From Pirellulales bacterium (GTDB lineage: Bacteria > Planctomycetota > Planctomycetia > Pirellulales > JACPPG01): a stretch of DNA of 64,000 nucleotides. The DNA lies in the NCBI GenBank assembly GCA_035546535.1, contig DASZWQ010000185.1:1-64000 (forward strand), given 5' to 3'. Both the position numbers and the translations under genes were made by a program. Positions within the stretch are counted from its first letter, which is position 1; each line of letters opens with the position of its first letter. Of the stretch, positions 3,965-63,115 are shown one piece after another. Under the pieces are notes generated by a model. The model made no database searches. It was given only the letters and a program-made list of their open reading frames with translations, and was not told the DNA's origin.

Positions 3965-6385
3965 TCAGCTATCCACGGCGGCCAGCGACTTCTCTTCGGC
4001 CGGCACTTGCTCCGGCTGCCGGCGGATGCCGTGCGTGAAGAAGCGCCCCAATGGCCCCGCCAGGATCGCGGGCATCAGCACCAGGTCCGCGAATAGACCC
4101 CACGAGAGCAAAAGCAGCATCAAGAGGCCGAACATACGTGTCGGCACGAACGAGCTCAGCCCGAAGACCGATAGCCCGAGGCCGACGATGATGGAACTTT
4201 GCGCCATAGCCACAGCGGCGTTGCGGTAGGCGTAAATCGCGGCGGTGCGGCGGTCGTATCCTTTGGCGATGCCGAAGCGAAACCACGTGATGTAATGCGC
4301 GGCATCATCGACCGAGACGCCCATCGCGACGCTGGCCGTCATCATGGTGCCGATGTCGACCACCACGCCGCCGTATCCCAAGATTCCGAATACCAGCGCC
4401 ATCGGCCAGACGTTGGGAAACATCACGAGCAAGCCGGCGGGCAGGCTGCGATAGACGACCGCCATCACGGCCGCCATGATCACGAAGGCCATGAAGAAGC
4501 TTTCGACCAGCCCTTCCAGCAGCGACCGCTCGGCCTTGTAGACGACGGGCGTTACGCCGGTGACCACGGCCGAGATGCCGTCGACCTTGGCTTCTTTCTC
4601 TGCATCGAGGTAGGGCTGCACCTCGCGATCGATGACGTGGACGAACTGGCCGTAATCGATATCCTCGCTGCCCACCAGGCGCAGGCTGATGCGCCACAGA
4701 TCTTCATCCAAGCCGTCGGCTTTTTCATGGCTCAGATAATCGCCTAACTCGTACTCGCGGCGATGCTCGGCGAGCTGCTTGTTGAAGACGTCGCGGCGGA
4801 CGTACTCGGGATTGCGCATCAGCAGTCGGCCGAAGGCCCCCCCCGTGGTGCGGCGCGACGTCTGCGCGGCCGACTCGTTCTCGGGCAGTGGAGGCGTAAA
4901 CGTGGCCGCCGACATGGTGCTCGACACCTCGGGCAGCGATTGCAGATGTTGCTGGATGCGATCGACCAGTTCCAGCCGCTCGAGAAAGCTGAGCTTGTTG
5001 GTGTGGTTGTCGAATACCAGCACCACCTCGGTCGGTACCAGCCCGCCCAAATGCTGCTCGAGCCAATCGTAGTGCTTGACCACTTCGGCATCGGGCGAGA
5101 ACAGATTGGCAATGCTCACCGAGGTGCGGATCCACCAGGCGCCGATGCCAAAGCCGACCAGCGTCACGGCAAACGCTACGCAGACCCAACCGTTGTGCCG
5201 GACGATACCCCAGGCCATCCGCAGGCCGACGCGATTTAAAAACTTCGGGTGTCGCGACATTTCCAACGGATCCGCCGGCGGAGGGGGCGCGAGCCTTGGG
5301 GGCCACAGCTGCAACGCGGACGGTACGCACGAGAACAACAACGTCAGCGTGGCCATCACGCCGATCGAGGCGTAAAAGCCGAACGACCGAATCGGCACGA
5401 GCTCGCTGGTGCACAGCGAAGCCAGGCCGATGGCCGTCGTGCCGGCCGACAGGGTGCAAGGAACCCAGGCACGCTTGACGGCGCGTTCGGCGGCGCCGGC
5501 CAGCCCACCGTCGTGCACCGCGTTGCGGTAGTAATTGATGATGTGGATCGCGCCCGAGAGCGACGCCGTATAAACCACCGGCGGCATCGTGTACAGGATC
5601 GCGTCCATCGAGCTGCCGGTGAAGTACACCAGCGACAGCGAAATCACGGCGCTGTACACGGCGCAGGCGATAATCAGCACCGTCAGATACATTTGCCGCA
5701 TGCACCAGTACGAAAGTCCCAGGCCGACCAGCGCCGAGAACAGCGCGAGTTGTCGCAGAGTCTTCTGTCCTTCCAGGTCGATGGCCACGTTATCGACCGG
5801 CGGTCCGCCCATGTAGATTTCGCTGCGTGGCAGGCCCGTAGCCAACTCGGCGGCGCGATAGAGCTCGTCGAGCGTGTAGTGCAGCTTGTCCTGGGCGTGT
5901 TGCGTGAGCGATACGACGGCACTGGTCTGTTTTCCATCCTTACCGACCAGCAAACCTGACAGACGCTTGATGGCTTCGGAACGCGGCAGATTAGTGGGGG
6001 GATCGGTCAACCGCCGCACCAGTTCGGGCCCGGTGAGAACGCTGGAAAAGAGCGAAGTGTCGATCGGCGTCTGGTCCTGCTCGGACCGCGGCGCGACGAG
6101 CCGGGCGAATTTTTCGACGCGCGGATCGTCGAGCGTTGCGCCCTGCCAACTGACGAGGACCTGCGTCTCGTTTTCGAAATGCGCTTGGAACCAGCGATAA
6201 TCCTTGGTTTCGGAGAACGTGGCGGGCAGCCAATCCTTGACGTCGTTGCGATTGGTCTGCGCAGCCCGATTGGCCCCAAAAATGAGCACCGGGAAGACGA
6301 CCAGGACCGTGGCGAGAATCGCCCGGCTATAGCGCTGATAAAAGGTAGGTTTCGCGGCGGATGCAAGCTGTTGCGGCCGATTCAT
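3965..6385 (-). CDS. MMPL/RND-superfamily transporter
   Basis: An 806-residue membrane protein with the duplicated layout of RND/MMPL exporters. A first transmembrane helix (near residue 25) is followed by a periplasmic domain of about 200 residues, five or six helices, a cytoplasmic linker rich in proline, a second periplasmic domain with helices on each side, and a final helix bundle. The second half has ASVAMGVSVDDAAHYITWF, the typical helix-4 motif with acidic residues thought to relay protons. Family members export lipids, hopanoids or hydrophobic compounds; the substrate cannot be read here. I prefer the ATG at 6385 (MNRPQQLAS); an in-frame start at 6466 would add 27 unlikely residues. 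No periplasmic adaptor gene is adjacent, which is normal for MMPL types. Confidence 0.88.
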   Translation of the reverse strand: MNRPQQLASAAKPTFYQRYSRAILATVLVVFPVLIFGANRAAQTNRNDVKDWLPATFSETKDYRWFQAHFENETQVLVSWQGATLDDPRVEKFARLVAPRSEQDQTPIDTSLFSSVLTGPELVRRLTDPPTNLPRSEAIKRLSGLLVGKDGKQTSAVVSLTQHAQDKLHYTLDELYRAAELATGLPRSEIYMGGPPVDNVAIDLEGQKTLRQLALFSALVGLGLSYWCMRQMYLTVLIIACAVYSAVISLSLVYFTGSSMDAILYTMPPVVYTASLSGAIHIINYYRNAVHDGGLAGAAERAVKRAWVPCTLSAGTTAIGLASLCTSELVPIRSFGFYASIGVMATLTLLFSCVPSALQLWPPRLAPPPPADPLEMSRHPKFLNRVGLRMAWGIVRHNGWVCVAFAVTLVGFGIGAWWIRTSVSIANLFSPDAEVVKHYDWLEQHLGGLVPTEVVLVFDNHTNKLSFLERLELVDRIQQHLQSLPEVSSTMSAATFTPPLPENESAAQTSRRTTGGAFGRLLMRNPEYVRRDVFNKQLAEHRREYELGDYLSHEKADGLDEDLWRISLRLVGSEDIDYGQFVHVIDREVQPYLDAEKEAKVDGISAVVTGVTPVVYKAERSLLEGLVESFFMAFVIMAAVMAVVYRSLPAGLLVMFPNVWPMALVFGILGYGGVVVDIGTMMTASVAMGVSVDDAAHYITWFRFGIAKGYDRRTAAIYAYRNAAVAMAQSSIIVGLGLSVFGLSSFVPTRMFGLLMLLLLSWGLFADLVLMPAILAGPLGRFFTHGIRRQPEQVPAEEKSLAAVDS

Positions 6386-6535
6386 GCGCGCACTTTTGGC
6401 CAAGCGTGAAAGAAAACGAGCCCGGGCGTCAATGTTCCCGCTGCAATCGTCGCGCCAGGCAGCCACGAATTTCGACGGTCAGCTTAGCAAATCCGGCCTG
6501 CGGCGAATAACCCAAGTCCGCTGTGCCCCGACGAT

Positions 6536-7981
6536 TCACTCGCCGAGAGTGCTTTTGCGCCGCAGAATGTGATGATAATGCTGGGCGAAGCGGTGCGCCT
6601 CGTCGCGCACGTATTGCAGAAGGCGCAGCGCGTAAGAATGGCGGCTTAGCCGTAGCGGATCAGGGGCGTCACCCAGGTAGATTTCTTCCTCGCGCTTGGC
6701 CAGCGAGATGACTACCGGCGGTTCGATCGACAGCTCGCGAAACGCGGCCAGGGCCGCGTTGAGCTGGCCGCGGCCGCCATCGACCAGGAGCAGATCGGGA
6801 AATACTTCGCCCTCGTCTTCCAAGCGCTTAAAGCGGCGCGCGACCACCTCGTGAATGCTGGCAAAGTCGTCGATGCCCCCCACGCCGCGGATCTTGTAGC
6901 GCTTGTAGCCCGGCTTGAACGGCAGGCCATCGATGAATTGCACGAGGCTGGCCACGGTCTCGCCGCCGCCGAGGTGCGCGATGTCCACGCCTTCGATCGT
7001 GCGCAGCGTCTCGTCCAGCTTCAGTACTTTCTTCAGGCCCGCCAACCCCTTCTTCGGGTCGATGTAAAAGACCTCGGGCTGCACGTGCGTATCGAGCTCG
7101 CCGCGGCGGTCGAGCGTTTCCAGCGCAAAGATCTCGTCGCGCAGGCGAGCCGCCTTCTCGAATTTCAATTCCGTGGCGGCGGCCGCCATCTCGGCCCGCA
7201 TCTCTTTCAAGAGCGATGCCTTTTTCCCTTCCAGGAACATCCGCAGCCGGGCGATGTCGCGACGATATTCTTCCTTCGAGATGCGCAGGTTGCACGGTGC
7301 CGTACATTGTTGAATGCTGTGCAACAGGCAGGGCCGGAACCAGCGCCATTTGTCGTCGCCGTCTTCGATGTCCAGGCTGCAAGTGCGGAACTTGAAAATC
7401 TTCTGCAATACCTGGATCGCGCCGCGCAGGCTGCCGGCGCTGGCGAACGGGCCGTACAGCTTGGTGCCCCGGTCCTGCGGCTCGCGCGTGAATTCGACGC
7501 GTGGGAAATCCTCGCGAATGAAGATTTCCAGATAGGGAAAGCTTTTGTCATCCTTCAGGTCGCGGTTGTATTTCGGCTGCACGTCCTTGATCAGCCGCGA
7601 TTCGATCAACAGCGCGTCGACCTCGCTGTCGGCCTCGAGGAAATCGATATCCGCGATCTCGCGCACGAGATCCGCCGTGCGCTGGTCCTCGGCGGCCGCC
7701 TTCAGAAAGTAACTGCTGGCGCGCGAGCGCAAATTGACCGCTTTGCCGACGTAGATCACGACGCCGGCCGCATCCTTCATCAGGTAGACGCCAGGCGTTT
7801 GCGGGAACTCGCGCACCTTGCCGGCGGCATAGGCGAAACCAAGCGGCTCACTCGGCGCGGCCGCTTCCTGCTCAGGCTCATTGCCGGCCGAAGGCGCGTT
7901 CTCCCGGCGCTCGACGGGCTCGGGAGTGCCGTCGGCGGGTACGTCGTCAAGCGGCGGTGTATTTCCCCCGGGCCTGGCCAT
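6536..7981 (-). CDS. uvrC: UvrC-like excinuclease subunit, short form without HhH domain
   Basis: UvrC makes both incisions in UvrABC nucleotide excision repair. The 481-residue protein has a low-complexity acidic and proline-rich N-terminus (to about residue 50), a GIY-YIG nuclease domain (GVYLMKDAAGVVIYVGKA), the cysteine cluster around CLLHSIQQCTAPC, a UVR helix pair (LKFEKAARLRDEI) and an RNase H-like C-terminal nuclease with GVDIAHLGGG, LLLVDGGRGQLNAA and RDEAHRFAQHYH. It stops at RRKSTLGE, exactly where other UvrCs enter the tandem helix-hairpin-helix domain. The usual family length is about 600 residues. The stop looks genuine, so the protein is either a planctomycete-type short UvrC or a C-terminal truncation. 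Confidence 0.92.
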   Translation of the reverse strand: MARPGGNTPPLDDVPADGTPEPVERRENAPSAGNEPEQEAAAPSEPLGFAYAAGKVREFPQTPGVYLMKDAAGVVIYVGKAVNLRSRASSYFLKAAAEDQRTADLVREIADIDFLEADSEVDALLIESRLIKDVQPKYNRDLKDDKSFPYLEIFIREDFPRVEFTREPQDRGTKLYGPFASAGSLRGAIQVLQKIFKFRTCSLDIEDGDDKWRWFRPCLLHSIQQCTAPCNLRISKEEYRRDIARLRMFLEGKKASLLKEMRAEMAAAATELKFEKAARLRDEIFALETLDRRGELDTHVQPEVFYIDPKKGLAGLKKVLKLDETLRTIEGVDIAHLGGGETVASLVQFIDGLPFKPGYKRYKIRGVGGIDDFASIHEVVARRFKRLEDEGEVFPDLLLVDGGRGQLNAALAAFRELSIEPPVVISLAKREEEIYLGDAPDPLRLSRHSYALRLLQYVRDEAHRFAQHYHHILRRKSTLGE

Positions 7982-8142
7982 GCCTGATGTTTCAACTCCG
8001 GTCGTCGAACGGTGCAGAAGGGAATCCTATGCGGCGCATCCATTATATCCGGTCAGCGAATTGTCGCATTTCCGATCGATCTGGGGAGGCATGCTTGATG
8101 GATTGCTCGCGCCGGCTTCGAGCGTGCTTTTGCGCACGCCGT

Positions 8143-8173
8143 TTGCAGTGACGTCGGAAAAATCCGTTATACT
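8143..8173 (+). promoter_or_regulatory. Candidate sigma-70 promoter before the hemerythrin-like gene
   Basis: TTGCAG at 8143-8148 and TATACT at 8168-8173 are separated by 19 bases, slightly longer than the ideal 17. Transcription would start near 8180, leaving a leader of about 120 bases before the chosen ATG at 8302. This is a weak call from hexamer matches only. Confidence 0.35.
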
Positions 8174-8301
8174 TGAGGTATCGAAGTATGTTCTCAAATA
8201 GCTATCGCGATAGTGCGTCGGGGCGATCAAGCGGGCATTCGGTCGAAGACCAGCGCGGTGGTCAGCCATCCACCAGCGCCGTACTGGAAGAAGGTGCACC
8301 G

Positions 8302-8757
8302 ATGAATCAACGCGACATCGCTCAACAGACCCTGCTCGAACAGAATCTTTTGACCAACATCACCCAGGCCATTCGCACGACGATCGCTTGGGAGCCGCGC
8401 GGTACCGACCTGGGCGGCAAGCTGCGCAGCTTGCGGTTCATCACGGCCTCGCTGGAAAGACATCTCGACCACCTGATGGACCTGGAAGAGTACGACGGCT
8501 ACATGTCGGCGGCGCAAGAGTCGAGCCCGAACCTGGCCGAGAAGATCACCGCGCTGCGTGATGAGCACGAGCACTTCCGTGACGGCGTACACCGCCTGGT
8601 CGCCAAGCTGGACCGCATCGACAACGACGATCGGACCGGCCTGGAAAAAGTGTGTGTCGAGGTGGGCGATCTGCTCAGCCGCATCGACGAGCACACCCGT
8701 CGCGAGGCCGACCTCTTGCAGGAGGCCTTCCTGCGCGACGAGGGGGGCGAGGGCTAA
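8302..8757 (+). CDS. Hemerythrin-like (HHE) protein
   Basis: A 151-residue, mostly helical, soluble protein. Metal-ligand spacing of the HHE hemerythrin fold is visible: a histidine pair in LERHLDHLMDLEEYDGY, a DEHEHFRDGVHRLV helix, and DEHTRREADLLQEAF at the C-terminus. Such domains bind a di-iron centre and serve in oxygen, NO or iron sensing and storage. I chose the ATG at 8302, with AAGAAGGT upstream; an earlier in-frame ATG at 8188 would add a Ser/Gly-rich leader without structure. No partner gene is adjacent, since the next gene is almost 300 bases away. Binding of iron rather than another metal is inferred from the family. Confidence 0.75.
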   Translation: MNQRDIAQQTLLEQNLLTNITQAIRTTIAWEPRGTDLGGKLRSLRFITASLERHLDHLMDLEEYDGYMSAAQESSPNLAEKITALRDEHEHFRDGVHRLVAKLDRIDNDDRTGLEKVCVEVGDLLSRIDEHTRREADLLQEAFLRDEGGEG

Positions 8758-9045
8758 CCGCCGCCGCTCCTGCGAACCGGACAATTTGGCAGGCACAGCC
8801 TAGCTCGGGCATGTTCCCCTCCAGGAGAGGTCGGACGCCGGCCGATGAACCGGTTAGCCAGACGCTAGCCGGGCCGGAGCGCAAACCGCTCGTTTTTCGC
8901 TGCGCGCCACGTAGACTCGGCCGACACGCTTTGGCTACAATTCGTCCTAGCGGGGGTTATCGTTTCCCACCAGGGTGCCTGCCTCCCTCGAAAGCCCCAC
9001 CGCTCGCTGGCGCAACCATCCACCGGCACGATCAGGAGCGTTACG

Positions 9046-10398
9046 ATGCTCACCCTCTTTGGCCGCGCGTCACGATACTGCGATGGGGTCGACCGCCGCA
9101 GCTTCTTGCGCGCGGGAGCCTTGGCAATCGGTGGTCTGTCATTAGCTGACCTATTGCGATTGCAGGCCACGGCAGAAACCAATCGTAGCCTGGCGACCGA
9201 TCCGCATGAAAAATCCCAAGCGCGATCCGGCAAGGCGGTGATCTTCGTCGAACTCGGTGGCGGCCCGTCGCACTTCGAAACCTATGACCCGAAGCCGAAT
9301 GCTCCGGTCGAATTCCGCGGTCCGCTCGACGCCGTCGGAACCAACGTGCCCGGCGTTTTCCTCAGCCAGTACATGAGCGAACAAGCGAAGCTGCTCGACA
9401 AGCTGGCCATCGTCCGCTCGGTGCGGCATACGTCCAACGCCCACGATCCGTCGAGCCACCTGACGCAGACCGGCTATCTGAAGCGCGGGCAAAAAGCCGG
9501 CTTGAACGAGATGCCGTGCTTCGGTTCGGTCGCCGCGCGCGTCGTTGGAGCGAACGCCCCCGGTCTGCCCGCTTATGTCGCCCTGCCACGTCTGATGCGA
9601 AATGGCGGCGCGGCCTACCTGGGCACGGCTTACAACCCGTTCGAGACCATTACCGACCCGGGCAAGAAGAATTTTTCGGTCCGCAACCTGGCCCTATCGA
9701 CTGGCCTGAGCGTTGACCGGCTGGAAGATCGCCGCACGCTGCTGACGGCGCTCGATTCGCAGCGCCAGCTGATGGATCTGGAACGGTCGAGCGAAGCGAT
9801 CGACGATTTCACGCGTCAGGCACTGGAAATGGTCACCGGCCCACGAGCCCAGGCTGCCTTCGACATTAAGCGCGAGAAGGACAGCGTCCGCGAGAAATAT
9901 GGTCTGACCGAGATCGGACAGTCGCTGCTTCTGGCGCGACGCCTGGTCGAGGCCGGCGTTACTTGCGTCACCGTACGATTCCCCGGCTGGGACAACCACC
10001 AGCGGATCGCCAAGGCGATTTCAGACCGCGGACCCATGTACGACGCCGCGATGGCGGCCCTGATCCGCGATCTCTTTAAGCGCGGGCTTGACCGGGACGT
10101 GCTGCTCGTGGCGATGGGAGAATTCGGCCGCACGCCGCGCGTAAATCGCAACGCCGGCCGCGACCACTGGGGATCGGCCATGAGTGTTCTCTTGGCCGGC
10201 GGCGGATTGAAGACGGGTATCGTCGGCGCCACCAACAGCAAGGGCGAGCTGCCCGTCGAGGCGCCGTACGGTCCGGAAAACATCCTGGCCACGATCTACC
10301 GGCATCTGGGGATCGATGCCTCGCAGACGTTCGTCGATCTCTCCGGCCGCCCACGCTACGTGCTGGAAGAGCGGCGCCCGATCGAAGAGCTGATCTAG
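9046..10398 (+). CDS. DUF1501 family exported protein (alkaline-phosphatase/sulfatase-like fold)
   Basis: A 450-residue DUF1501 protein. The N-terminus has a twin-arginine type signal (DRRSFLRAGALAIGGLSLADLL), so it is probably exported folded. Family hallmarks include VIFVELGGGPSHFETYDPKP, VRSVRHTSNAHDPSSHLTQTGY, WDNHQRIAK, VAMGEFGRTPRVNRNAGRDHWG and the C-terminal LGIDASQTFVDLSGRPRYVL. DUF1501 proteins belong to the alkaline-phosphatase/sulfatase fold and are greatly expanded in planctomycetes; the reaction is not established. The ATG at 9046 has CAGGAG just upstream. Usually these genes sit beside a DUF1549/DUF1553 gene, but this copy stands alone, followed by a small secreted CBM6-like gene. 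Confidence 0.9.
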   Translation: MLTLFGRASRYCDGVDRRSFLRAGALAIGGLSLADLLRLQATAETNRSLATDPHEKSQARSGKAVIFVELGGGPSHFETYDPKPNAPVEFRGPLDAVGTNVPGVFLSQYMSEQAKLLDKLAIVRSVRHTSNAHDPSSHLTQTGYLKRGQKAGLNEMPCFGSVAARVVGANAPGLPAYVALPRLMRNGGAAYLGTAYNPFETITDPGKKNFSVRNLALSTGLSVDRLEDRRTLLTALDSQRQLMDLERSSEAIDDFTRQALEMVTGPRAQAAFDIKREKDSVREKYGLTEIGQSLLLARRLVEAGVTCVTVRFPGWDNHQRIAKAISDRGPMYDAAMAALIRDLFKRGLDRDVLLVAMGEFGRTPRVNRNAGRDHWGSAMSVLLAGGGLKTGIVGATNSKGELPVEAPYGPENILATIYRHLGIDASQTFVDLSGRPRYVLEERRPIEELI

Positions 10399-10527
10399 CA
10401 CGCGGCAGCTTGCGTTAGATTGGTGCCATGGTTTTTCGGCGCAGCCGAATAAGCATGGCCGTTTCGGTAAGCATGTCGTTCGACTGTGGGCCCGGCTTAT
10501 TGCACCTTGACGAACAGGTTCATCGCT

Positions 10528-11034
10528 ATGGGCACGGCTTCCCATGTTTTACTAGCTTTGCTTTGCACTATCGTAGTCTCTTCTGCCGAGGAGCCCAAAA
10601 AGTTCGACGGCAGCAAGCCTGAAGTGGTTACGCCGGCGGCTGACCGGTCGCTGACCCTGCCGGCCAGCAAGTGCGAAGTGTACGGCAAGACGCTCCAGTA
10701 CATGCCCGAGGATCGAGCGCTGGGCTGGTGGAACAGCCCGAACGATCATGCCGTGTGGAAACTCGCGGGCCTGACCTCCGGCAAATACGAGGTGTGGTTC
10801 GAGTGGTCGTGCGCCGACAAATCGGCCGACAACACGTTCGTCGTCGCGGTCGGAAAGCACGAACTGAAAGGCAAGATTCCCTCAACCGGCTCTTGGCAGA
10901 CGCACAAGAAAGCCAAATTCGGCACGATCGAGCTACCCGAGGGGGGAGCCAATCTCGAACTTCGCTCCGAGGGGAAGATCAAGGAGGCGCTAGGTGATTT
11001 TCGGGAGGTACGCCTGGTGCCGGTGCGACGGTAG
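10528..11034 (+). CDS. Small secreted CBM6/CBM35-like beta-sandwich protein
   Basis: A 168-residue protein with a signal peptide (MGTASHVLLALLCTIVVSSA). The mature domain has the pattern of carbohydrate-binding-module-like beta sandwiches: LGWWNSPNDHAVWKLAGLTSG, then GKYEVWFEWSC, FVVAVGKHELKGKIPSTGSW and a C-terminal GANLELRSEGKI, ending in a strand FREVRLVPV. In planctomycetes this module is often fused to larger exported enzymes; here it is free. I chose the ATG at 10528 because the signal peptide starts there; an in-frame earlier start at 10486 would precede it with a non-hydrophobic tail. Ligand unknown. It is 130 bases after the DUF1501 gene on the same strand. Confidence 0.65.
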   Translation: MGTASHVLLALLCTIVVSSAEEPKKFDGSKPEVVTPAADRSLTLPASKCEVYGKTLQYMPEDRALGWWNSPNDHAVWKLAGLTSGKYEVWFEWSCADKSADNTFVVAVGKHELKGKIPSTGSWQTHKKAKFGTIELPEGGANLELRSEGKIKEALGDFREVRLVPVRR

Positions 11035-30625: not shown

Positions 30626-30727
30626 TTTCTTACTCAACTGACGCGATAGGCACCGCCGATACTACCGGCACGAACGCCTACAGCGGAGTTCTCCGTTGTA
30701 CGAGTGCGCGGAACGGTCGTGGACCTT

Positions 30728-32209
30728 ATGTGGATTCCGACGATGTCGATCAGCCGCTTCAAAGCATCACTGCTAGCACTGGCCCTGCAGATGCTGTTGG
30801 TATCGTTGGCACTGGGCATCGAGCCCGGTGTCGACCCTTACCCCAACGTGCATCCGCCGGTGCCTCAACAGCCGAGTGGACCTCCGCAGCCGGCGCGTGA
30901 CCGGCCGGGACCTGGGCCGACGGTCGGGGATGAGCCGCCCAGCGGTATTGATGCTTCGGGGCCCGAGTTTGTCAACATCGCGGACATGGAGGTATTCGCG
31001 CCGGCCGACATCAGCACCTATGGAGCGGGAATTGCACCGAACACCGGGTGGTGGCTTTCGTGGGATTATCTGCGCTATACCGTGACCGCACCGCATCGCA
31101 CCTTGATTGGCAACCCGGATATTGCCACCGGCTACTCGACGGGGTCGTCGGTTTTCTACGGTGCCACGCCCGGCATCTCCTCCGACCGCACGACGGGAGG
31201 CAGCATTGCCGGACCGCAATTGGCCCCCATGGACACCGGCTGGATCGGCCAAGGCCCTTCGAACGGCTACCGTTGGGAGGGCGGCTGGATGGACCAGGAC
31301 CACGGCTTCCTGCTCAGCGCTTTCAAGTTGTACGATAACGACCAGAACGCCTTCGCGAACAATGTGGGTGTACCGTTTTACGCTCCTCCACAGGGCCCCT
31401 TGGGCATCTCGCTGTTGCAAGGCTTTGTGGATCCCAACGGCACCGGGCATGACGCGGACCTGAACGGCAACGGCATTTTCGGCCGCTATGGAGCGAACCC
31501 GGTGAGCGGTGCCGTACCGTCCAACGCCGGAGCCCCGGATTTCGGCGACTTGGCGACTTTGCCCGTCAACTTCACCTCGTTGATTGCTTACGACCATCGG
31601 GCCCTGTGGGGTGCAGAGGCCGACTACGTGTGGCGTCTGCGGCCGGCCTTTCACCCGGTGACCTGGGAAGTGTTGGCCGGTGCGCGCTACTTCCGCTTCG
31701 ACGAGAGCTTCGCAGTGATCGGCCAGGGCGGCGTGCTGGATTCGAGCTTCTGGAATACCCGTTCGATCAATAACATGGGTGGTGGCCAGATCGGCTTGCG
31801 ATTTGCCCACAAGCGCAACCGCCTGATGTTCACGAGCGAAGGTCGCTTTGCCGCTTTGGCGAACTGGCAAAACAACCTGCAGCAAGGCGAAATCGCCTCG
31901 AACACGGTGGCCGGCGGCGTGTCGACGGTGCAGGGCCGGTCGCTGAATCTGGTCCCCACCGGCTGGAACACGGCCGTGCAGAAGACCGAGTTCTCGCCCT
32001 TGGGTGAATTGCGGTTCAACCTGCAATACCAGGTCTTCAACAAGGCCTCGGTCAATGTCGGCTGGACCGGCATCATCGTGGGCAGCGTCGCCCGGCCGGC
32101 GGACATGATCAACTACCAGTTGCCGAACATGGGCATCCTGGTGCATGGGAACAACAAGCAGACCGTGTTCATGCAAGGCTTGACGCTGGGCTTCATCTTC
32201 AACCGGTAG
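30728..32209 (+). CDS. BBP7 family outer-membrane beta-barrel protein
   Basis: A 493-residue exported protein. A signal peptide (SRFKASLLALALQMLLVSLA) is followed by a proline-rich segment (about residues 40-85), then the barrel domain that starts with WWLSWDYLRYTV, a hallmark of the planctomycete BBP7 family. Repeated aromatic-ended strands follow, for example ALWGAEADYVWRLRP, WEVLAGARYFRFDESF and IGLRFAHKRNRLMFTSEGRFAAL, and the final strand ends in MQGLTLGFIFNR with the usual terminal aromatic residue. The protein likely forms an outer-membrane pore or adhesin barrel. The start at 30728 is preferred; ATG 30743 or GTG 30704 are possible. Its own promoter must lie in the 30392-30727 gap. Confidence 0.88.
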   Translation: MWIPTMSISRFKASLLALALQMLLVSLALGIEPGVDPYPNVHPPVPQQPSGPPQPARDRPGPGPTVGDEPPSGIDASGPEFVNIADMEVFAPADISTYGAGIAPNTGWWLSWDYLRYTVTAPHRTLIGNPDIATGYSTGSSVFYGATPGISSDRTTGGSIAGPQLAPMDTGWIGQGPSNGYRWEGGWMDQDHGFLLSAFKLYDNDQNAFANNVGVPFYAPPQGPLGISLLQGFVDPNGTGHDADLNGNGIFGRYGANPVSGAVPSNAGAPDFGDLATLPVNFTSLIAYDHRALWGAEADYVWRLRPAFHPVTWEVLAGARYFRFDESFAVIGQGGVLDSSFWNTRSINNMGGGQIGLRFAHKRNRLMFTSEGRFAALANWQNNLQQGEIASNTVAGGVSTVQGRSLNLVPTGWNTAVQKTEFSPLGELRFNLQYQVFNKASVNVGWTGIIVGSVARPADMINYQLPNMGILVHGNNKQTVFMQGLTLGFIFNR

Positions 32210-32897: not shown

Positions 32898-35800
32898 TCA
32901 CACGGCGAACGACGACGCGTTCTCGATGCGTTCTTCCCGCGGCGCGGTCGGCTGCTGACCGACGTATGCGGGATCGAGTTTCATCAATTCCTCGGCCAGC
33001 ACCTGCACGGTATAGCGAATCTGCTCCTCCGTATGGTTCGAGGTGATGAAGAACCGCAAGCGGGCTGCCTTTTCCTCGACCGCCGGATGAAGGATCGGCT
33101 GCACGTTGACGCCGCGCCGGGCCATCGCCTGGGAAGCCTCGAGGCAGTGCAGCGAGTTACCCAGGATCACCGGCACGACCGGTGAATCCTTGCTGTTGCC
33201 GGTATTCATCTTCCACGACTTGGCCAGGTTGAGGAACAACTGCGAGCGCTCGCGCAGACGGGCTACGCGTTCGGGCTCGTCTTCCAATAACTGAATGGCC
33301 GCGAGAGCCGCTGCCGCATTGCTGGGCGGAATGCCCACGCTGAAAACAAAACCGGGGGCCGTGTACTTCAAGTACTGGATCAGCGCCTGGCTGCCGGCGA
33401 TGTAACCACCACAACTGCCGAACGCTTTGCTGACCGTACCCATCCACAGGTCGACATCCGACGGATGGACGTCGAAATGCTCACCAATGCCGCGTCCGCG
33501 CCGTCCCAGCACGCCCACGGAGTGGGCTTCGTCGATCATGAGGAACGCCTTGTGCCGCTTCTTCACCTCGATCAAGCGCGGCAGGTCCGGGATGTCGCCG
33601 TCCATGCTGTACACGCCCTCGGTGGCGATCAGCACACGGCGGTAGTCGCCACGATGTTCTTCCAACAGCCGATCGACGGCGCGCCAGTCGTTGTGCGGGA
33701 ACGGCCTTCGGCGCGCTCCCGATAGGATCGATCCCTGGACGATGCTGTTGTGAGCCAACGCGTCGTGCAGGATCAAGTCACCGGGACCGAACAGGTGGCC
33801 AATGATCGTCTCATTGGTCCCATGACCGCTCACGAGCACGATGGCATCCTCGCTGCCGATCAGATCGGCGATGGCCAACTCGAGATCGCGATGGATCACT
33901 TTGTTGCCCGACACCAGTCGGCTGGCCGAGACCGACGTTCCGTAACGATCGATCGCGTCCTTGGCCGCCTTGGCGACCGTCGGATCGCCCGACATGCCAA
34001 TGTAATTGAAGCTCGAAAAATTGATCAGCTCGCGTCCGCCGATCACGGTCGTGTCGGTGGCGACTTGCTCGTGCAGGTGGAAGAACGGATTCGCCAGCCC
34101 GGACTCGTTCAACATGTCCAGGCTCTGCTTGAGCTGGGCGATTTCGGGGAACTTGTCGAAGTTGTAGTTCTCGGCAGGAATCTCGCTCGTCTCGAGATGC
34201 TGCGCCTTCTTCTGGCCGCTGCCCAGGTAGCTTTCGACCGCCTCGAGAACTTGCCGGCAGGTTTCCAGCTCGGGCATGACATCCTCGGGGAAGCGTCCGC
34301 CGAATCGCTCTTCGAGCGAGGCGAGGATTTCCATGCGTTCGAGCGAATCGAGTCCCATATCCGCGATGGTCGAATCGAGCGTCAGGTTCCCGGCGCGATC
34401 CTTGGCAATGCGGCGCACTTCGTCGAGAACGACACTCTCTTTTTCCGCTTTGGAGATCGCCGAAGAATGACCGTTGCCGGCCCCATTACCGTTTGTCCCG
34501 TTGCCGCCAGCGCCGTTTCCGCTTGTGCCGTTTCCGCTTGTGCCATTGCCACCTGTGGCACTTTGAGCCCCGCCACGCGCGGCGGGGCTGGCGGCCGATC
34601 GGGGCAACTCATTGCCCGCGCCGGCGCCTTGGCGATTGTCGTTGTCATGCGTGGTGGAGTGGCGGCGCTGCTTGAGCGTCGCCCGGCCGCTGTGCCGGCT
34701 CGTCAAAAGCAGATTCGGTTCCACGATCGTCTCGTCACGCGACTGCGAATCCCAGCGTGCCACGGCGTCGAGCTCGTCGGTCAAGAATGCCGCCCGGCAA
34801 GCATGACGCTGAATCTTGCCGCTCGAGGTCTTGGGAATCGCTCCCGACTTCAACAACACGATCGAATCGGCCATAAGCTCGTGCTCGCGCGAGATCTCGC
34901 GACGAATGGCCTCGATAATGGCGTCGGCCTGGGACCGCGCACTCCGCTCGACTTCGGCCACGATGATCAACCGCGTCACTTCGTCGTCGTCGGTCGTGAC
35001 CGCCGCCACGCAACTGGGGCGAACCGCGGCGTGTGCCTTTTCGACGGTCAGCTCGATATCGTGCGGATAGTGATTCAGCCCGCGAATGATGATCAGGTCT
35101 TTCAAACGGCCGGTGATGAACAATTCGCCGCGATCGAGAAAGCCGAGGTCACCGGTGCGCAGGAACGGTCCCTCGCCGGTGTCGGCGAGCTGGGCGCGGA
35201 AGACGTGCCCGGTCTCTTCGGGACGATTCCAATATCCTTGGGCGACGCTGCCCCCTTTCACCCATACCTCGCCGATCGTGCCGTCGGCACAGGTACGAAT
35301 CGTTTCAGGATCGACGATGGCGATTTGCTGGCCGATCGCGTTTTCGCCGGAGCCGACCAGGCGGCGACCTGCGCCACCGCCGGGCATGGCATGCCCTGTC
35401 TCGAGGTGATCGGGCAGATAATCGCGGACGACGGGCGCGGCATCTTTGTAGCCGCCCGTAACGATCAACGTGGCCTCGGCCAAACCGTAGCAAGGGTAGA
35501 AGGCCTCGCGCCGGAAACCGCACGGCTCGAACGCTTCACAAAAGCGATCGATCGTTTCGGCACGCACCGGCTCGGCGCCGTTAAACGCCAGCGTCCACTG
35601 GCTGAGGTCCAGTTCGGCGCGCTGTTCAGGCGTGGTTTTACGCACGCACAAATCGTAGGCGAAATTCGGTCCGCCGCTGATCGTGGCCCGATACTTCGAG
35701 ATCGCTTGCAGCCAGCGAATGGGCCGCTGCAAAAAGGCAACCGGCGACATCAATACGTTCGGCCGGGCGATGAACATGGGCTGCAAAATGCCGCCGATCA

Positions 35801-36476
35801 GCCCCATGTCGTGATAACTGGGCAACCAGAACACGCCACGGCCGGTGCGCTGGCTCTGCTCGAACAAATGCTTGATGACCCCCGAATTGTGGACCAGGTT
35901 GCCGTGCGTCAGCATGACGCCCTTGGGCCGGCCGGTCGAACCCGAGGTGTATTGCAGAAAGGCGAGCGTGCCGGTGCCGATGTCGGGGTATTCCCAATTC
36001 GCTTCGATGCCGGCGTGCGATTGATCGGTAGCGCGCCAGCGCACTCGCAACAAGTCGCGGCTCGCGCCCAGCAACGGTTGCACGCGCTCGAGCACGGCGC
36101 CTGTCGTCAATGCGACGCGGGCATCACAATCGGCCGCAATGGCCTGAATGCGCCCCAGCGAACGATTCATGCGGGGCGGGTACGCCGGCACGGCCACCAC
36201 GCCCGCGTACAGGCAGCCAAAAAAGGCCGCAATGAACTCCAATCCGGGCGGGTACAAGAGCAAGGCACGCTGACCCTGCAAGCCGTACGCTTGCAACCAG
36301 GCGGCGATTCCCCGTGCCTGCCGATCCAACTCGGCGTAAGTCATCGAGATTTCTTCGTTTTCGCCGTCCACCAGATAGGCAAATGCCTGCTCATCCCCTT
36401 TATGAGCGGCCAGGTGCCGGAGCAGATCCACGAGGTTCGGCGGCCCAAAGAACAATCCACGAGTTTGATCAGACAC
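32898..36476 (-). CDS. Fused fatty-acyl-AMP ligase / acyl carrier protein / alpha-oxoamine synthase
   Basis: One polypeptide of 1192 residues with three domains. Residues about 10-590 form a fatty-acyl-AMP ligase: YTSGSTGRPKGVMLTHGN (near 175), WLPSYHDMGLIGG, the FAAL-type FLQRPIRWLQAISKYRAT and PNFAYDLC, then LRTGDLGFLD and GLNHYPHDIE. A glycine/asparagine-rich linker (about 640-670) leads to an acyl carrier protein with MGLDSLERME (Ser near 708). The C-terminal PLP domain (about 800-1170) has HGTNETIIGH, LIATEGVYSMDGD, DEAHSVGVLG and the Schiff-base lysine in VSKAFGSCGG (near 1017), as in serine palmitoyltransferase, BioF and CqsA. The GTG at 36476 has GGGGAG 8 bases upstream; ATG at 36494 is an alternative. 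It should activate a fatty acid, load it on its carrier and condense it with an amino acid. Confidence 0.92.
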   Translation of the reverse strand: MSDQTRGLFFGPPNLVDLLRHLAAHKGDEQAFAYLVDGENEEISMTYAELDRQARGIAAWLQAYGLQGQRALLLYPPGLEFIAAFFGCLYAGVVAVPAYPPRMNRSLGRIQAIAADCDARVALTTGAVLERVQPLLGASRDLLRVRWRATDQSHAGIEANWEYPDIGTGTLAFLQYTSGSTGRPKGVMLTHGNLVHNSGVIKHLFEQSQRTGRGVFWLPSYHDMGLIGGILQPMFIARPNVLMSPVAFLQRPIRWLQAISKYRATISGGPNFAYDLCVRKTTPEQRAELDLSQWTLAFNGAEPVRAETIDRFCEAFEPCGFRREAFYPCYGLAEATLIVTGGYKDAAPVVRDYLPDHLETGHAMPGGGAGRRLVGSGENAIGQQIAIVDPETIRTCADGTIGEVWVKGGSVAQGYWNRPEETGHVFRAQLADTGEGPFLRTGDLGFLDRGELFITGRLKDLIIIRGLNHYPHDIELTVEKAHAAVRPSCVAAVTTDDDEVTRLIIVAEVERSARSQADAIIEAIRREISREHELMADSIVLLKSGAIPKTSSGKIQRHACRAAFLTDELDAVARWDSQSRDETIVEPNLLLTSRHSGRATLKQRRHSTTHDNDNRQGAGAGNELPRSAASPAARGGAQSATGGNGTSGNGTSGNGAGGNGTNGNGAGNGHSSAISKAEKESVVLDEVRRIAKDRAGNLTLDSTIADMGLDSLERMEILASLEERFGGRFPEDVMPELETCRQVLEAVESYLGSGQKKAQHLETSEIPAENYNFDKFPEIAQLKQSLDMLNESGLANPFFHLHEQVATDTTVIGGRELINFSSFNYIGMSGDPTVAKAAKDAIDRYGTSVSASRLVSGNKVIHRDLELAIADLIGSEDAIVLVSGHGTNETIIGHLFGPGDLILHDALAHNSIVQGSILSGARRRPFPHNDWRAVDRLLEEHRGDYRRVLIATEGVYSMDGDIPDLPRLIEVKKRHKAFLMIDEAHSVGVLGRRGRGIGEHFDVHPSDVDLWMGTVSKAFGSCGGYIAGSQALIQYLKYTAPGFVFSVGIPPSNAAAALAAIQLLEDEPERVARLRERSQLFLNLAKSWKMNTGNSKDSPVVPVILGNSLHCLEASQAMARRGVNVQPILHPAVEEKAARLRFFITSNHTEEQIRYTVQVLAEELMKLDPAYVGQQPTAPREERIENASSFAV

Positions 36477-37212
36477 TGATTGGACTCCCCGCATTACAAT
36501 AGGCAGATTGCGTCAACACGACGGCGGAAAACCCCGCGAGGGATTGGTAGCGCGCTCACTCGTCGCCCGCATCGGCCAGCGATCACGGCCAAAGCCGGCT
36601 GGCTCTACCACGATCGTTGGTCGGCCCGCGCAGACGGGCACGTACTCTCTATCCATGAAAGTGGGCGGATTATGGGTGAGGGGACGCCGTTCGGCAGCGA
36701 TGCAGGTAGGAATAACGCCAAGAAGTATCCGTTCTTAGCAATCGCTCCGAACCCTAGCTAGCGACCGCTTCGCGATTGCTCGACAGATCCCGCGATCCGC
36801 GAGCCCCATCGCAAAATTCAACTAGCTAACCGTCAGAAAAAGAGTACCACGTTGGGGATGGGTATTCAAACAACTTTCCCCCAGCAAGCACGCCTAAACC
36901 CAAGCGCTGCACGGCCAACTCGGAAAATGAAGACCTCACCGAATGGCGTGCAGACTCTTCGAGGCGATAATACTTCATCAGATCAGCTTATTTTACGTAT
37001 CTTGACAAAAGCCCGCGTGGGGGATCAGGCCACCAGAAAGCACCAATTCCGCCCCGCGCCGCACGGCCAATCCAAGGAGTCTGGCGAACGTATATCTTTC
37101 ACAGTTCGGGGGAACGGCATCGCGATCGAATCATTACAAGGGGCCCCGGAAGTTCGAAGTCTGGTTGCTCAAAGCCCACAGGCCGTTTCGTAACCATGAT
37201 CCAAGGAAACAA
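36477..37212. other. About 730 bases without a convincing gene
   Basis: This divergent gap should contain the minus-strand promoter of the fused enzyme and the plus-strand promoter of the PQQ-type gene. Base composition is lower in GC than the flanks. Two plus-strand frames (36480-36761 and 36852-37193) have no family-like sequence, poor starts and amino-acid use unlike neighbours, so I do not call them. A 9-bp inverted repeat (AGCAATCGC at 36737, GCGATTGCT at 36772) and a TTGACA at 37002 without a good -10 are the only signals noted. Confidence 0.5.
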
Positions 37213-60505: not shown

Positions 60506-63115
60506 ATGAGTCATGCCAAAACATTCACCGGTCGGCCGCGGCATCGGCAGACGCGACGTAGCGTGAGGATCGTCGATCGCGTCGCGCGCACGCTGATCGC
60601 GCTGGGCGGTATCGGCACGGTGATCGCAGTTTCCACGGTCTGTATCTTCCTGGTATGCGTCGCGGTGCCGCTGTTTCTGCCGGCCAGCTATTCGCCCGTC
60701 AAACGGGGGCCGCTGTCGCCTGCCATTGCCGATTGTCTGCATTTCGAAATTGACGAGTACCGGGTCCTCGGCTGGGCAATGTCAGCCGAGGCAACGCTGC
60801 GAGCGTTCCGGTTGGACACGGGGGACGTCATCCACGAGCAGGAGTTGTTCCCTGATCAAAAGCCCACCGCCTGGTCGTTCAGCGTCGGCGGTCGCGAGGC
60901 GTCGTGCGGCTTCGCGGACGGATCGGTGCGCACCATCCGATTGGGCTTTACCACCACATTTCCCGACGAGAATGAGATACCTGAAGACATCCGGAGCAAG
61001 CTCGCCGATGCTTCTTCGGCGGTCTACAAGGAGGGGCTACTCTCGCGCACCCGGCAAGGTGCGTTGCGATTACAAACGGTACGTGCCGTGCCGTCCGAAC
61101 CGATTGTGCCGGCCGGCTCGGCGGCGGTTGCTTGCGTCGATTCCTCCTCACGCCCCACCGGCCGCGTTTGCTGCGTGCTGGACGATAAGGGAAATCTGAT
61201 GTTGCACGCCGTGCGCCGGCGACCCGCACTGGCGCGCGAGGCGGTGGAATCTCATGCCGTCGACGTCGCCATGCCATACGCGCCATCGGCCGAACGCGGG
61301 CCGCCCCGGTGCTTGCTGGTTTCGGGTCAGGCTGACAACGCGTACTTGATCTGGAACGACGGTCATCTTTTGCGGTACGACATTCGCGATCTCGAGCAAC
61401 CGCGGCTCGCCGAGCAGGTGGATCTCGTGCCCGAATCGAACCAGTCGGTCACGGCGCTGACCTTTCTGCCCGGCAAGACGACGCTCGTCGCGGGTGATTC
61501 CCTGGGGCGCGTTCGCGCCTGGTTTCCTACGAAGCCCACCGAGGCACGCACCGCTGACGGGGCTGTTCTGGCGCTGGCACACGAGTTGTCAGGACCGCAA
61601 AGCGCCGTGTCGTCGCTGACCTCGTCGCTACGGGCACGGTTGGTCGCGGCGGCTTATGACGACGGCAGCATGCACGTATTTCAAGTGACCAGCGCTCGCG
61701 CGCTTGTCGATATTCCGGCAGCAGGCAATGCGGCCGGCGATGAGGCCGCGGCCCGGCTGGCGGCGTTCACGCCCAAGGGGGATGCCTTGGTCGCGATTGC
61801 TGGCAGCATGGCGCAGCAATGGACGCTCGCGACAGGCTATCCCGAAGTTTCGCCAGCGACCCTCTTTCGTGCCGTGTGGTACGAAGGTTACGAAGGCCCA
61901 CAACACGTCTGGCAATCTTCAGGCGGGGGCGACGATTTCGAACCGAAGCTGGGCATGATTCCGTTGGTGTTCGGCACGTTGAAAGCCACGATCTATTCGC
62001 TGTTGTTCGCCGTGCCTCTGGCCTTGCTTTCTGCGGTGTACAGCAGCGAGTTTCTGCAGCCGCGCATCAAGGCTCGCATCAAGCCGGCGATCGAAATGAT
62101 GGCCAGCCTGCCGAGCGTCGTGCTGGGATTCGTGGCGGCGCTGGTGGTCGCGCCGTACGTCGAAAAAATGATTCCCGCCGTGCTGGCCAGCGTGGCTGTC
62201 GTGCCGCTGACGTACCTGGTGGCCGCGTACTTGTGGCAGATGCTGCCGGCGCGCGCCGGTTTGTTGTTGGCTCGATGGCGTTTCGCCTTCATTTGCGCAA
62301 CTCTGCCGGTGGGGATACTCGCCTCGGCGCTCGTGGGGCCGCTTATCGAGCGCACCCTGTTTGCCGGTGACCTGCGCTCGTGGGTCGACGGCCAGATCGG
62401 CAGCGGGCTGGGGGGCTGGATCGTTTTGTTCCTGCCCTTGTCGGCACTCGCGACCGCCCTCTTCATCGGCCGCCAGGTGAATCCCTGGCTGCGCAGCACG
62501 CTCCGCGGAATGGGGCGCGAACGACGGGCCTGGCTCGAACTCGTCAAGTTTCTGATCGCGGTCGTGGTCACCGTGGCCGGCGCCGCGACCGTGGGGTTAC
62601 TGCTCGATTCACTGCATCTCGATCCGCGCGGATTAGTCCTCGACACGTACGTACAGCGCAACGCCCTGGTCGTCGGCTTCGTGATGGGCTTCGCCATCAT
62701 CCCGCTGATCTATACGATTGCCGACGACGCGTTGTCGACCGTGCCGGCCCATCTGCGATCGGCCTCGCTGGGCGCCGGCGCCACTCCCTGGCAAACCGCC
62801 ATTCGCGTCATTATTCCCACCGCCATGAGCGGACTGTTTTCCGCCGTCATGATCGGGCTGGGGCGCGCCGTCGGCGAAACGATGATCGTGCTCATGGCCG
62901 CCGGCAACACGCCGATCATGGACTGGAACATCTTCAACGGATTTCAAACCTTGTCGGCCAGCATCGCCACCGAGTTGCCCGAGGCCGTGCAGGGAAGCGC
63001 CCACTACCGCACGTTGTTCGTGGCGGCACTCGCGCTGTTCGTGATTACCTTCATCGTGAACACGCTGGCCGAAGCCGTGCGGCTCCGTTTCCGACGGAGG
63101 GCATATGAGCTCTAG
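60506..63115 (+). CDS. pstC: PstC-like phosphate permease with large N-terminal beta-propeller domain
   Basis: An 869-residue protein, about 2.5 times the usual PstC. A first helix (residues about 30-60, ALGGIGTVIAVSTVCIFLVC) is followed by a large soluble domain (about residues 75-480) with WD40-like repeats, for example SVTALTFLPGKTTLVAGDSL and LVAAAYDDGSMHVFQVTSA. The ABC permease domain starts near residue 480 (IPLVFGTLKATIYSLLFAVP), includes PSVVLGFVAALVVAPY, and has the EAA-type loop GLGRAVGETMIVLMAAGN. The soluble domain probably sits outside the membrane, where it could bind PstS or sense phosphate. The start is 22 bases after pstS. Long PstC proteins occur in some proteobacteria too, to my recollection. 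Confidence 0.9.
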   Translation: MSHAKTFTGRPRHRQTRRSVRIVDRVARTLIALGGIGTVIAVSTVCIFLVCVAVPLFLPASYSPVKRGPLSPAIADCLHFEIDEYRVLGWAMSAEATLRAFRLDTGDVIHEQELFPDQKPTAWSFSVGGREASCGFADGSVRTIRLGFTTTFPDENEIPEDIRSKLADASSAVYKEGLLSRTRQGALRLQTVRAVPSEPIVPAGSAAVACVDSSSRPTGRVCCVLDDKGNLMLHAVRRRPALAREAVESHAVDVAMPYAPSAERGPPRCLLVSGQADNAYLIWNDGHLLRYDIRDLEQPRLAEQVDLVPESNQSVTALTFLPGKTTLVAGDSLGRVRAWFPTKPTEARTADGAVLALAHELSGPQSAVSSLTSSLRARLVAAAYDDGSMHVFQVTSARALVDIPAAGNAAGDEAAARLAAFTPKGDALVAIAGSMAQQWTLATGYPEVSPATLFRAVWYEGYEGPQHVWQSSGGGDDFEPKLGMIPLVFGTLKATIYSLLFAVPLALLSAVYSSEFLQPRIKARIKPAIEMMASLPSVVLGFVAALVVAPYVEKMIPAVLASVAVVPLTYLVAAYLWQMLPARAGLLLARWRFAFICATLPVGILASALVGPLIERTLFAGDLRSWVDGQIGSGLGGWIVLFLPLSALATALFIGRQVNPWLRSTLRGMGRERRAWLELVKFLIAVVVTVAGAATVGLLLDSLHLDPRGLVLDTYVQRNALVVGFVMGFAIIPLIYTIADDALSTVPAHLRSASLGAGATPWQTAIRVIIPTAMSGLFSAVMIGLGRAVGETMIVLMAAGNTPIMDWNIFNGFQTLSASIATELPEAVQGSAHYRTLFVAALALFVITFIVNTLAEAVRLRFRRRAYEL

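Follow-up and report, generated by a model that had tools for sequence, protein, structure and literature searches.

A fatty-acyl-AMP ligase, a carrier protein and an alpha-oxoamine synthase fused in one gene: a probable single-chain serine palmitoyltransferase system in Pirellulales

Sphingolipids are membrane lipids that are better known from animals and plants. A Black Sea survey, in the part of its text available to us, predicted sphingolipid makers among Planctomycetota by Spt homology in 138 metagenome-assembled genomes (MAGs) (PMC11334938). Here we describe a gene on a contig of a Pirellulales bacterium (DASZWQ010000185.1, assembly GCA_035546535.1; the stretch analysed, 64,000 nucleotides in all, is called the window) in which a fatty-acyl-AMP ligase (FAAL), an acyl carrier protein (ACP) and an alpha-oxoamine synthase (AOS) are joined in a single open reading frame (ORF). 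With a probability of roughly 70%, we read its product from sequence comparison as a one-chain serine palmitoyltransferase (SPT) system, a counterpart of AasR-AcpR-Spt that would start sphingolipid synthesis. In Caulobacter crescentus and Escherichia coli BL21, AasR, AcpR and Spt hold the same three activities in the same order as the fusion, as far as the accessible sections of the two reports go (PMC9386255, PMC11324152), and the first of these describes an experimentally shown tripartite system with a product that runs like 3-oxo-sphinganine. As these are three proteins and ours is one chain, the likeness is one of 'works like' and not of 'is'. What is new is that this function is fused, with an AOS of another clade; the chemistry itself is known. 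A full-text search of a limited set of open-access papers found no paper on a FAAL-ACP-AOS fusion. Our reading would put a definite gene behind sphingolipid synthesis in the majority of the genomes sampled from a planctomycete order, would condense the AasR-AcpR-Spt relay into one chain, making substrate channelling testable with a single protein, and would link FAAL-fed and polyketide synthase (PKS)-fed routes through one AOS clade.

The frame is open from an ATG at 36494 to a stop codon ending at 32898 and counts 1198 amino acids from that ATG, from which the residues are numbered. An initial annotation of the window, made from its letters alone, had placed the start at the GTG at 36476; we prefer this start as well, because GGGGAG lies upstream of it and because the open frame of the orthologue in genome G004 begins only at the equivalent of residue 6. 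The three domains on one chain with intact motifs, also reported in that annotation, are confirmed by the ORF, by Pfam (Table 1) and by 34 full-length orthologues. The motifs are TSGSTGRPKG and SSGKIQR (with Lys560) in the FAAL, GLDSL (with Ser717) in the carrier, and His915, Asp988, Lys1023 and Arg1147 in the AOS. We take Lys1023 to be the lysine that binds pyridoxal 5'-phosphate (PLP), His915 the stacking histidine and Arg1147 the carboxylate-binding residue, with Asp988 presumably also belonging to the catalytic site. The best solved match of the ligase is 7r7f, the FAAL domain of a Synechococcus olefin synthase (641.6 bits; in Foldseek, 54% identity); with FAALs as its top solved matches and its adenylation motifs kept, the ligase belongs to the FAALs, and FAAL-type models are also its best fits in NCBIfam, yet every one of them scores under its cut-off. 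A phosphopantetheinyl transferase homologue for the carrier is present on contig C74 of the same genome. As the full-length structure model is only moderate (mean predicted local distance difference test, pLDDT, 73.9; predicted template modelling score 0.50), the arrangement of the domains was left uninterpreted.

Table 1. Coordinates of the fused gene and its parts in the window
Feature	Positions	Strand	Basis and remarks
Fused gene FAAL - carrier - AOS	32898..36476	-	GTG start 36476, alternative ATG 36494; ORF, Pfam, orthologue alignment
GGGGAG, Shine-Dalgarno-like	36485..36490	-	Read from the sequence; 8 bases before the GTG start
FAAL, large adenylating part, residues 28-422	35229..36413	-	Pfam PF00501 AMP-binding, E 6.6e-65
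FAAL, C-terminal part with Lys560, residues 466-577	34764..35099	-	Pfam PF23024 DIP2-like AMP C-terminal, E 2.7e-16
Gly/Asn/Ser-rich linker between ligase and carrier, residues 586-678	34461..34739	-	Model pLDDT <50
Acyl carrier protein, phosphopantetheine Ser717, residues 689-752	34239..34430	-	Pfam PF00550 PP-binding, E 9.5e-9
AOS, serine-palmitoyltransferase-like, Lys1023 and Arg1147, residues 822-1165	33000..34031	-	Pfam PF00155 Aminotran_1_2, E 1e-48; tree; structure model

Conservation was followed in 40 genomes, namely the window's own and 39 others from its genus or order. The full-length fused ORF is found in 34 of them, and Ser717, Lys1023, Lys560, His915 and Arg1147 are invariant in all 34 orthologues, while Asp988 and Lys191 are each kept in 33 (Asn replaces the former in G035 and the latter in G030). 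A further genome, G031, carries pieces of the fusion on two contigs, and in the search of the 40 genomes the fused gene was not detected in G002 (77% complete), G005, G006, G009 and G016. Given 34 full-length orthologues in 40 genomes, the fusion is no chance arrangement; it has the look of a core lipid gene in this order and not of a member of an accessory cluster. In an evenly drawn phylum sample (294 genomes), 15 of the 16 listed genomes of the same order match at E 1e-80 with frames of at least 1122 amino acids, the exception being G016. Of the remaining 278 genomes, 7 match: one holds a fused piece (G173), one a separate AOS that is 55% identical (G264), and the other five hold relatives of 37-41% identity in frames of 385-435 amino acids.

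The co-substrate was approached through the phylogeny of the AOS. Our tree is unrooted and has 43 rows, G288 and E. coli BioF having been excluded for their long branches in a first tree; neither PfSgaB nor BL21 Spt is among the rows, and Sphingobacterium 8guh is the one bacterial SPT row that stands for a solved and named SPT. The labels 'Spt' and 'CerR' used here for Roseomonas, Rubrobacter, Streptomyces and Bacteroides rows are our own, given by gene context and similarity. The 27 carrier-linked AOSs, whether FAAL-fused, FAAL-split or PKS-linked, form one clade (support 100/99), and a split of 98/93 sets them, together with three eukaryotic LCB2 rows, apart from the bacterial SPT, KBL and BioF rows; in the first tree, with one LCB2 row, the corresponding split was 100/92. 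Thus the window AOS does not fall with the Sphingobacterium SPT and its relatives, in a clade other than theirs, and stands with the PKS-linked AOSs, beside eukaryotic LCB2. Among the PKS-linked enzymes, PfSgaB of Pseudomonas fluorescens MYb115 is in vitro a serine palmitoyltransferase that binds L-serine, favours it all but exclusively over alanine and glycine and yields 3-ketodihydrosphinganines, according to the portion of the report available (PMC12134224). PfSgaA-PfSgaB and the fusion both have an acyl supply made for their AOS, and their AOS clade appears alike as judged via the PKS-linked AOSs of Pseudomonas and Paraburkholderia; the iterative PKS, however, builds its acyl chain, whereas the FAAL would activate a free fatty acid. 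As a stand-in for PfSgaB we used an AOS from a Pseudomonas plasmid, likewise encoded after a PKS, which is 58% identical to the window AOS and close to it in the aligned motifs near the PLP site. The motif GSCGGYIAG is common to the window AOS and Arabidopsis LCB2a.

The most serious alternative, which we nevertheless hold to be improbable, keeps the same chemistry and replaces serine by L-alanine, glycine or a larger amino acid, so that 1-deoxysphingoid bases or another aminoketone would result. Enzymes of the AOS family that use other substrates differ little in fold: KBL, BioF, ALAS, a cysteate transferase and CqsA each fit the AOS model (mean pLDDT 92) at Z >43, and as SPT 3a2b, the top structural match (Z 53.3), and KBL 1fc4 (Z 52.3) are about tied, the fold does not decide specificity. 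The structural comparison with Spt, CqsA and BioF that the initial annotation had proposed brought a model which fits SPT and KBL about equally, and its pocket comparison was confined to aligned motifs. Against another amino acid speak the virtual exclusivity for serine of PfSgaB, an enzyme of the PKS-linked kind found in the same clade, and PLP-site motifs that closely resemble those of the Pseudomonas relative.

A second line of evidence comes from the enzymes that would act after the fusion. In the accessible text of PMC9386255, CC_1154/yghO is listed as an acyl-CoA N-acyltransferase gene required for dihydroceramide, and in E. coli BL21 aasR, epi (CerR), acpR and spt lie beside yghO. Starting from a GNAT-like gene that adjoins the fusion in G032, we arrived at plasmid matches including E. 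coli yghO, a Roseomonas cluster which, from its gene order, we read as sphingolipid-type, and tandems of AOS, GNAT and short-chain dehydrogenase/reductase (SDR) genes in Rubrobacter and Streptomyces. The window's genome has GNAT homologues on contigs C48, C164, C167 and C180, and YghO of BL21 is 31-37% identical to these four and 34% to the GNAT of L263, a locus of a gammaproteobacterial MAG. The copy on C180 (59552-60649) is divergent to an SDR gene 195 bases away (60844-61836), the single match of this genome to a Rubrobacter CerR query. In the SDR tree, the encoded protein groups at 100/100 with CerR of BL21, Roseomonas, Rubrobacter and Streptomyces and also with the SDRs of loci L263 and L265. 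Homologues of both CerS and CerR, the partners of the AasR-AcpR-Spt system, are thus present in the window's genome. At L263 the fusion (6476-9817) stands between a CerR-clade SDR gene (5428-6417) and a GNAT gene (9862-10992), all on one strand with gaps of <60 bases, and in Legionella wadsworthii a GNAT gene (7528-8673) directly abuts the fusion at 8676. The statement of the initial annotation that no ketoreductase or amide-forming gene is adjacent holds in the window; its corollary that the product cannot be guessed does not, as CerR and CerS homologues are paired on C180 and flank the fusion in L263.

Across the order, GNAT homologues occur in 37 of the 40 genomes and are missing only from G006, G009 and G016, where the fusion was not found either. 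They accompany all 34 intact fusions and occur in 3 of the 6 other genomes (20/9880, about 0.002, calculated by hand with kinship ignored), and sister genera in two families (f3 and f13) have both GNAT and fusion. A GNAT-SDR pair at most 600 bases apart is present in 8 of 22 genomes with a CerR match, a count that excludes ten CerR-query places coinciding with HpnA-like places and three short GNAT fragments; only part of the GNAT and SDR matches in the order genomes were read as genes.

Taken together, a route can be proposed. The FAAL domain would convert a free long-chain fatty acid and ATP to acyl-AMP, as family knowledge and its motifs suggest, and the fused carrier would receive the acyl group on the phosphopantetheine of its Ser717, in cis where AasR and AcpR work in trans. 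The AOS, judging from its clade, would condense the acyl group with L-serine under loss of CO2 to 3-ketosphinganine; in this step Lys1023 would hold the PLP and Arg1147 the carboxylate of the amino acid. The CerS-like GNAT (YghO family) and CerR-like enzymes of C180 may then acylate and reduce this product to (dihydro)ceramide, the probable end product to which the conserved gene pairs point. Spt and CerS of Caulobacter are located in the cytoplasm and its CerR in the periplasm, from which the authors infer acylation before reduction, in the part of the paper available to us (PMC11087976). The initial annotation had proposed a self-contained enzyme for long-chain alpha-aminoketones, possibly for a sphingoid base or a new signal. 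Such an enzyme, with a sphingoid base as the likeliest product, is supported by a ligase nearest to solved FAALs, an AOS that groups with PKS-linked ones and motifs kept in 34 of 34 orthologues; the ligase name given there, AcsR, has to be corrected, the Caulobacter ligase being called AasR in the accessible text of PMC11324152.

Several observations weigh against this reading. The window holds no CerS- or CerR-type partner gene for the fusion, the order has no dedicated operon (in the window the fusion is flanked by a gene for a BBP7 porin and by a small, unclassified ORF), and among the order loci taken a GNAT gene adjoins the fusion only in G032. Domain identities to BL21 are only 33% (FAAL), 28% (ACP) and 32% (AOS, to the proven Spt), and serine is a choice that we infer from relatives. 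All NCBIfam SPT models are missed by the AOS (297.5/640, 261.8/500 and 218/670), the top-scoring AOS model being bioF at 359.5, below its cut-off of 426.45; as the Pseudomonas PKS-linked AOS has the same ranking and likewise misses the SPT cut-offs, this ranking is uninformative on specificity. The CerR query matches 26 of the 40 order genomes, but 22 once matches of the HpnA-like family are removed, four genomes matching through HpnA-like proteins only, and of these 22 two have their SDR in the SDR tree. In G017 and G033 an HpnA-like SDR adjoins the fusion; it was considered as CerR and rejected, its clade being separate from the CerRs. In the phylum sample, GNAT homologues occur in 84 of 294 genomes, 15 in the order (not in G016) and 69 in other classes, and were not found in the same class outside the order; moreover, in G003, G004, G005 and G033 one of the GNAT genes has as its neighbour a standalone AOS with roughly 40% identity to that of the window. 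The GNAT is therefore not tied to the fusion and also accompanies other AOS types. Finally, the initial annotation had named loss of the PLP lysine or carrier serine in close relatives as a refutation: both are kept in 34 of 34 orthologues, but in a divergent copy of the order (G288, locus L093), the sole match above the cut-off in its genome, the FAAL-ACP-AOS layout is kept with an AOS lacking the PLP lysine and the stacking histidine, possibly a decayed or repurposed domain.

Instead of ending in ceramide, the sphingoid product might anchor a surface polysaccharide or some other component of the envelope, or form its lipid tail, which we consider slightly less probable than a change of amino acid. 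It is suggested by AOS relatives, 51-58% identical to the window AOS, that lie beside capsule-type genes in plasmid records of Shinella, Paraburkholderia, Caballeronia and Sinorhizobium, and which we take to be of the RkpG/WcbT type. However, these capsule-side AOSs are PKS-linked, whereas FAAL-fused forms are accompanied by CerS homologues in L263, L265 and L267 and by CerR homologues in L263 and L265, and the two are paired in the window's genome. The rkp and wcb capsule clusters are described in the accessible part of PMC3908369. Decidedly unlikely is a secondary metabolite or signal of the CqsA or PigH kind from an accessory cluster: PKS-fused AOSs of the carrier-linked clade do occur in the order, and contig C74 of the window's genome carries a nonribosomal-peptide-synthetase-type locus with a FAAL of its own, but the fusion recurs in 34 of the 40 genomes and is not surrounded by any biosynthetic cluster common to them, and its AOS is only 19% identical to CqsA. 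A biotin-type enzyme (8-amino-7-oxononanoate synthase), the pimelate alternative already raised in the initial annotation, can practically be dismissed in spite of the top NCBIfam rank of bioF, as the AOS stays outside the BioF rows in both trees and below the bioF cut-off, a separate BioF-like gene lies on C154 (tree placement 93/78) and the ligase belongs to the long-chain FAAL family.

Eleven AOS rows of the order form a subclade (98/95) in which two PKS-fused AOSs nest among the FAAL-fused ones, and the loading module has therefore probably been swapped there. Eukaryotic LCB2 (SPTLC2), which grouped with the carrier-linked clade in the unrooted tree, is in contrast to the fusion an acyl-CoA enzyme, a heterodimer with LCB1, without FAAL or carrier. 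It is a speculative thought, more doubtful than not, that the carrier-linked AOS family could be the closest bacterial kin of the eukaryotic SPT catalytic subunit, that eukaryotic sphingolipid synthesis might descend from a carrier-fed enzyme (fused or with a partner carrier), and that the loading module, FAAL-ACP or PKS-ACP, may have been swapped repeatedly before one conserved condensing domain.

The layout is not restricted to planctomycetes, a restriction whose possibility the initial annotation had raised. A motif scan of genome contigs for AOS yielded at least 118 stretches, and 80 loci were examined, so that the counts are those of a sample: FAAL and AOS share one ORF in 17 of 80, and with L158, L174 and L220 after extension in at least 20, others ending at the locus edge. 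Besides Pirellula, Rhodopirellula, Blastopirellula and Rubripirellula, these loci include MAGs of Gammaproteobacteria, Gemmatimonadetes and Desulfobulbaceae, and Legionella wadsworthii, which carries the system once fused and once split. An Acaryochloridaceae MAG has FAAL (in a broken frame), carrier, AOS and a classical SDR as consecutive separate genes, and in Planktothrix the FAAL is followed by an ORF of 154 amino acids and then by the AOS. One family of the order has a second AOS at the C-terminus of a PKS of 2.56-2.59 thousand amino acids (L054:2962-10719; also L087-L090 and L099-L101), which in L054 reads KS-AT-DH-ER-KR-ACP by Pfam. In G019, another FAAL-ACP-AOS protein of 1112 amino acids (L053:7624-10959) carries an AOS of a different subfamily (33-38% identical), which suggests more than one origin for the layout.

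Some further observations concern the gene surroundings. At the C180 locus (L134) a ketosynthase, a fatty-acid desaturase, the CerS-like GNAT and the CerR-like SDR are neighbours, which makes it a candidate sphingolipid cluster outside the window. In G003 (L132, compared with L137 of the window's genome) the GNAT is followed by the standalone AOS, 40% identical to that of the window; in the matching locus of the window's genome the flanking clusters and GNAT are kept and the AOS was not found. HpnA-like extended SDRs lie within 2 kb of a CerS-like GNAT in six genomes (L125, L126, L127, L128, L129 and L130). FemAB_like PF04339 was dropped as a ceramide synthase candidate, with one match in the genome (57 bits) and homologues in 5 of 40 genomes. 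The BBP7 outer-membrane porin gene (30704-32209) is convergent with the fusion, and a gene of the same cluster lies near the fusion in 18 of 35 clustered loci, although the choice of ORFs was imperfect and BBP7 was confirmed by Pfam in two; the clustering picked shadow ORFs in GC-rich DNA, the window included, and only Pfam-scanned genes were interpreted. At a distance of a few kb from the fusion, the four loci L065, L066, L068 and L073 carry both a gene of the CDP-alcohol phosphatidyltransferase type, seen by Pfam in L073, and one for an rRNA adenine dimethylase, seen by Pfam in L065. Beside the fusions of the non-Pirellulales loci L265, L266 and L270 stand ORFs resembling ABC transporter ATPases or permeases, a possible lipid exporter.

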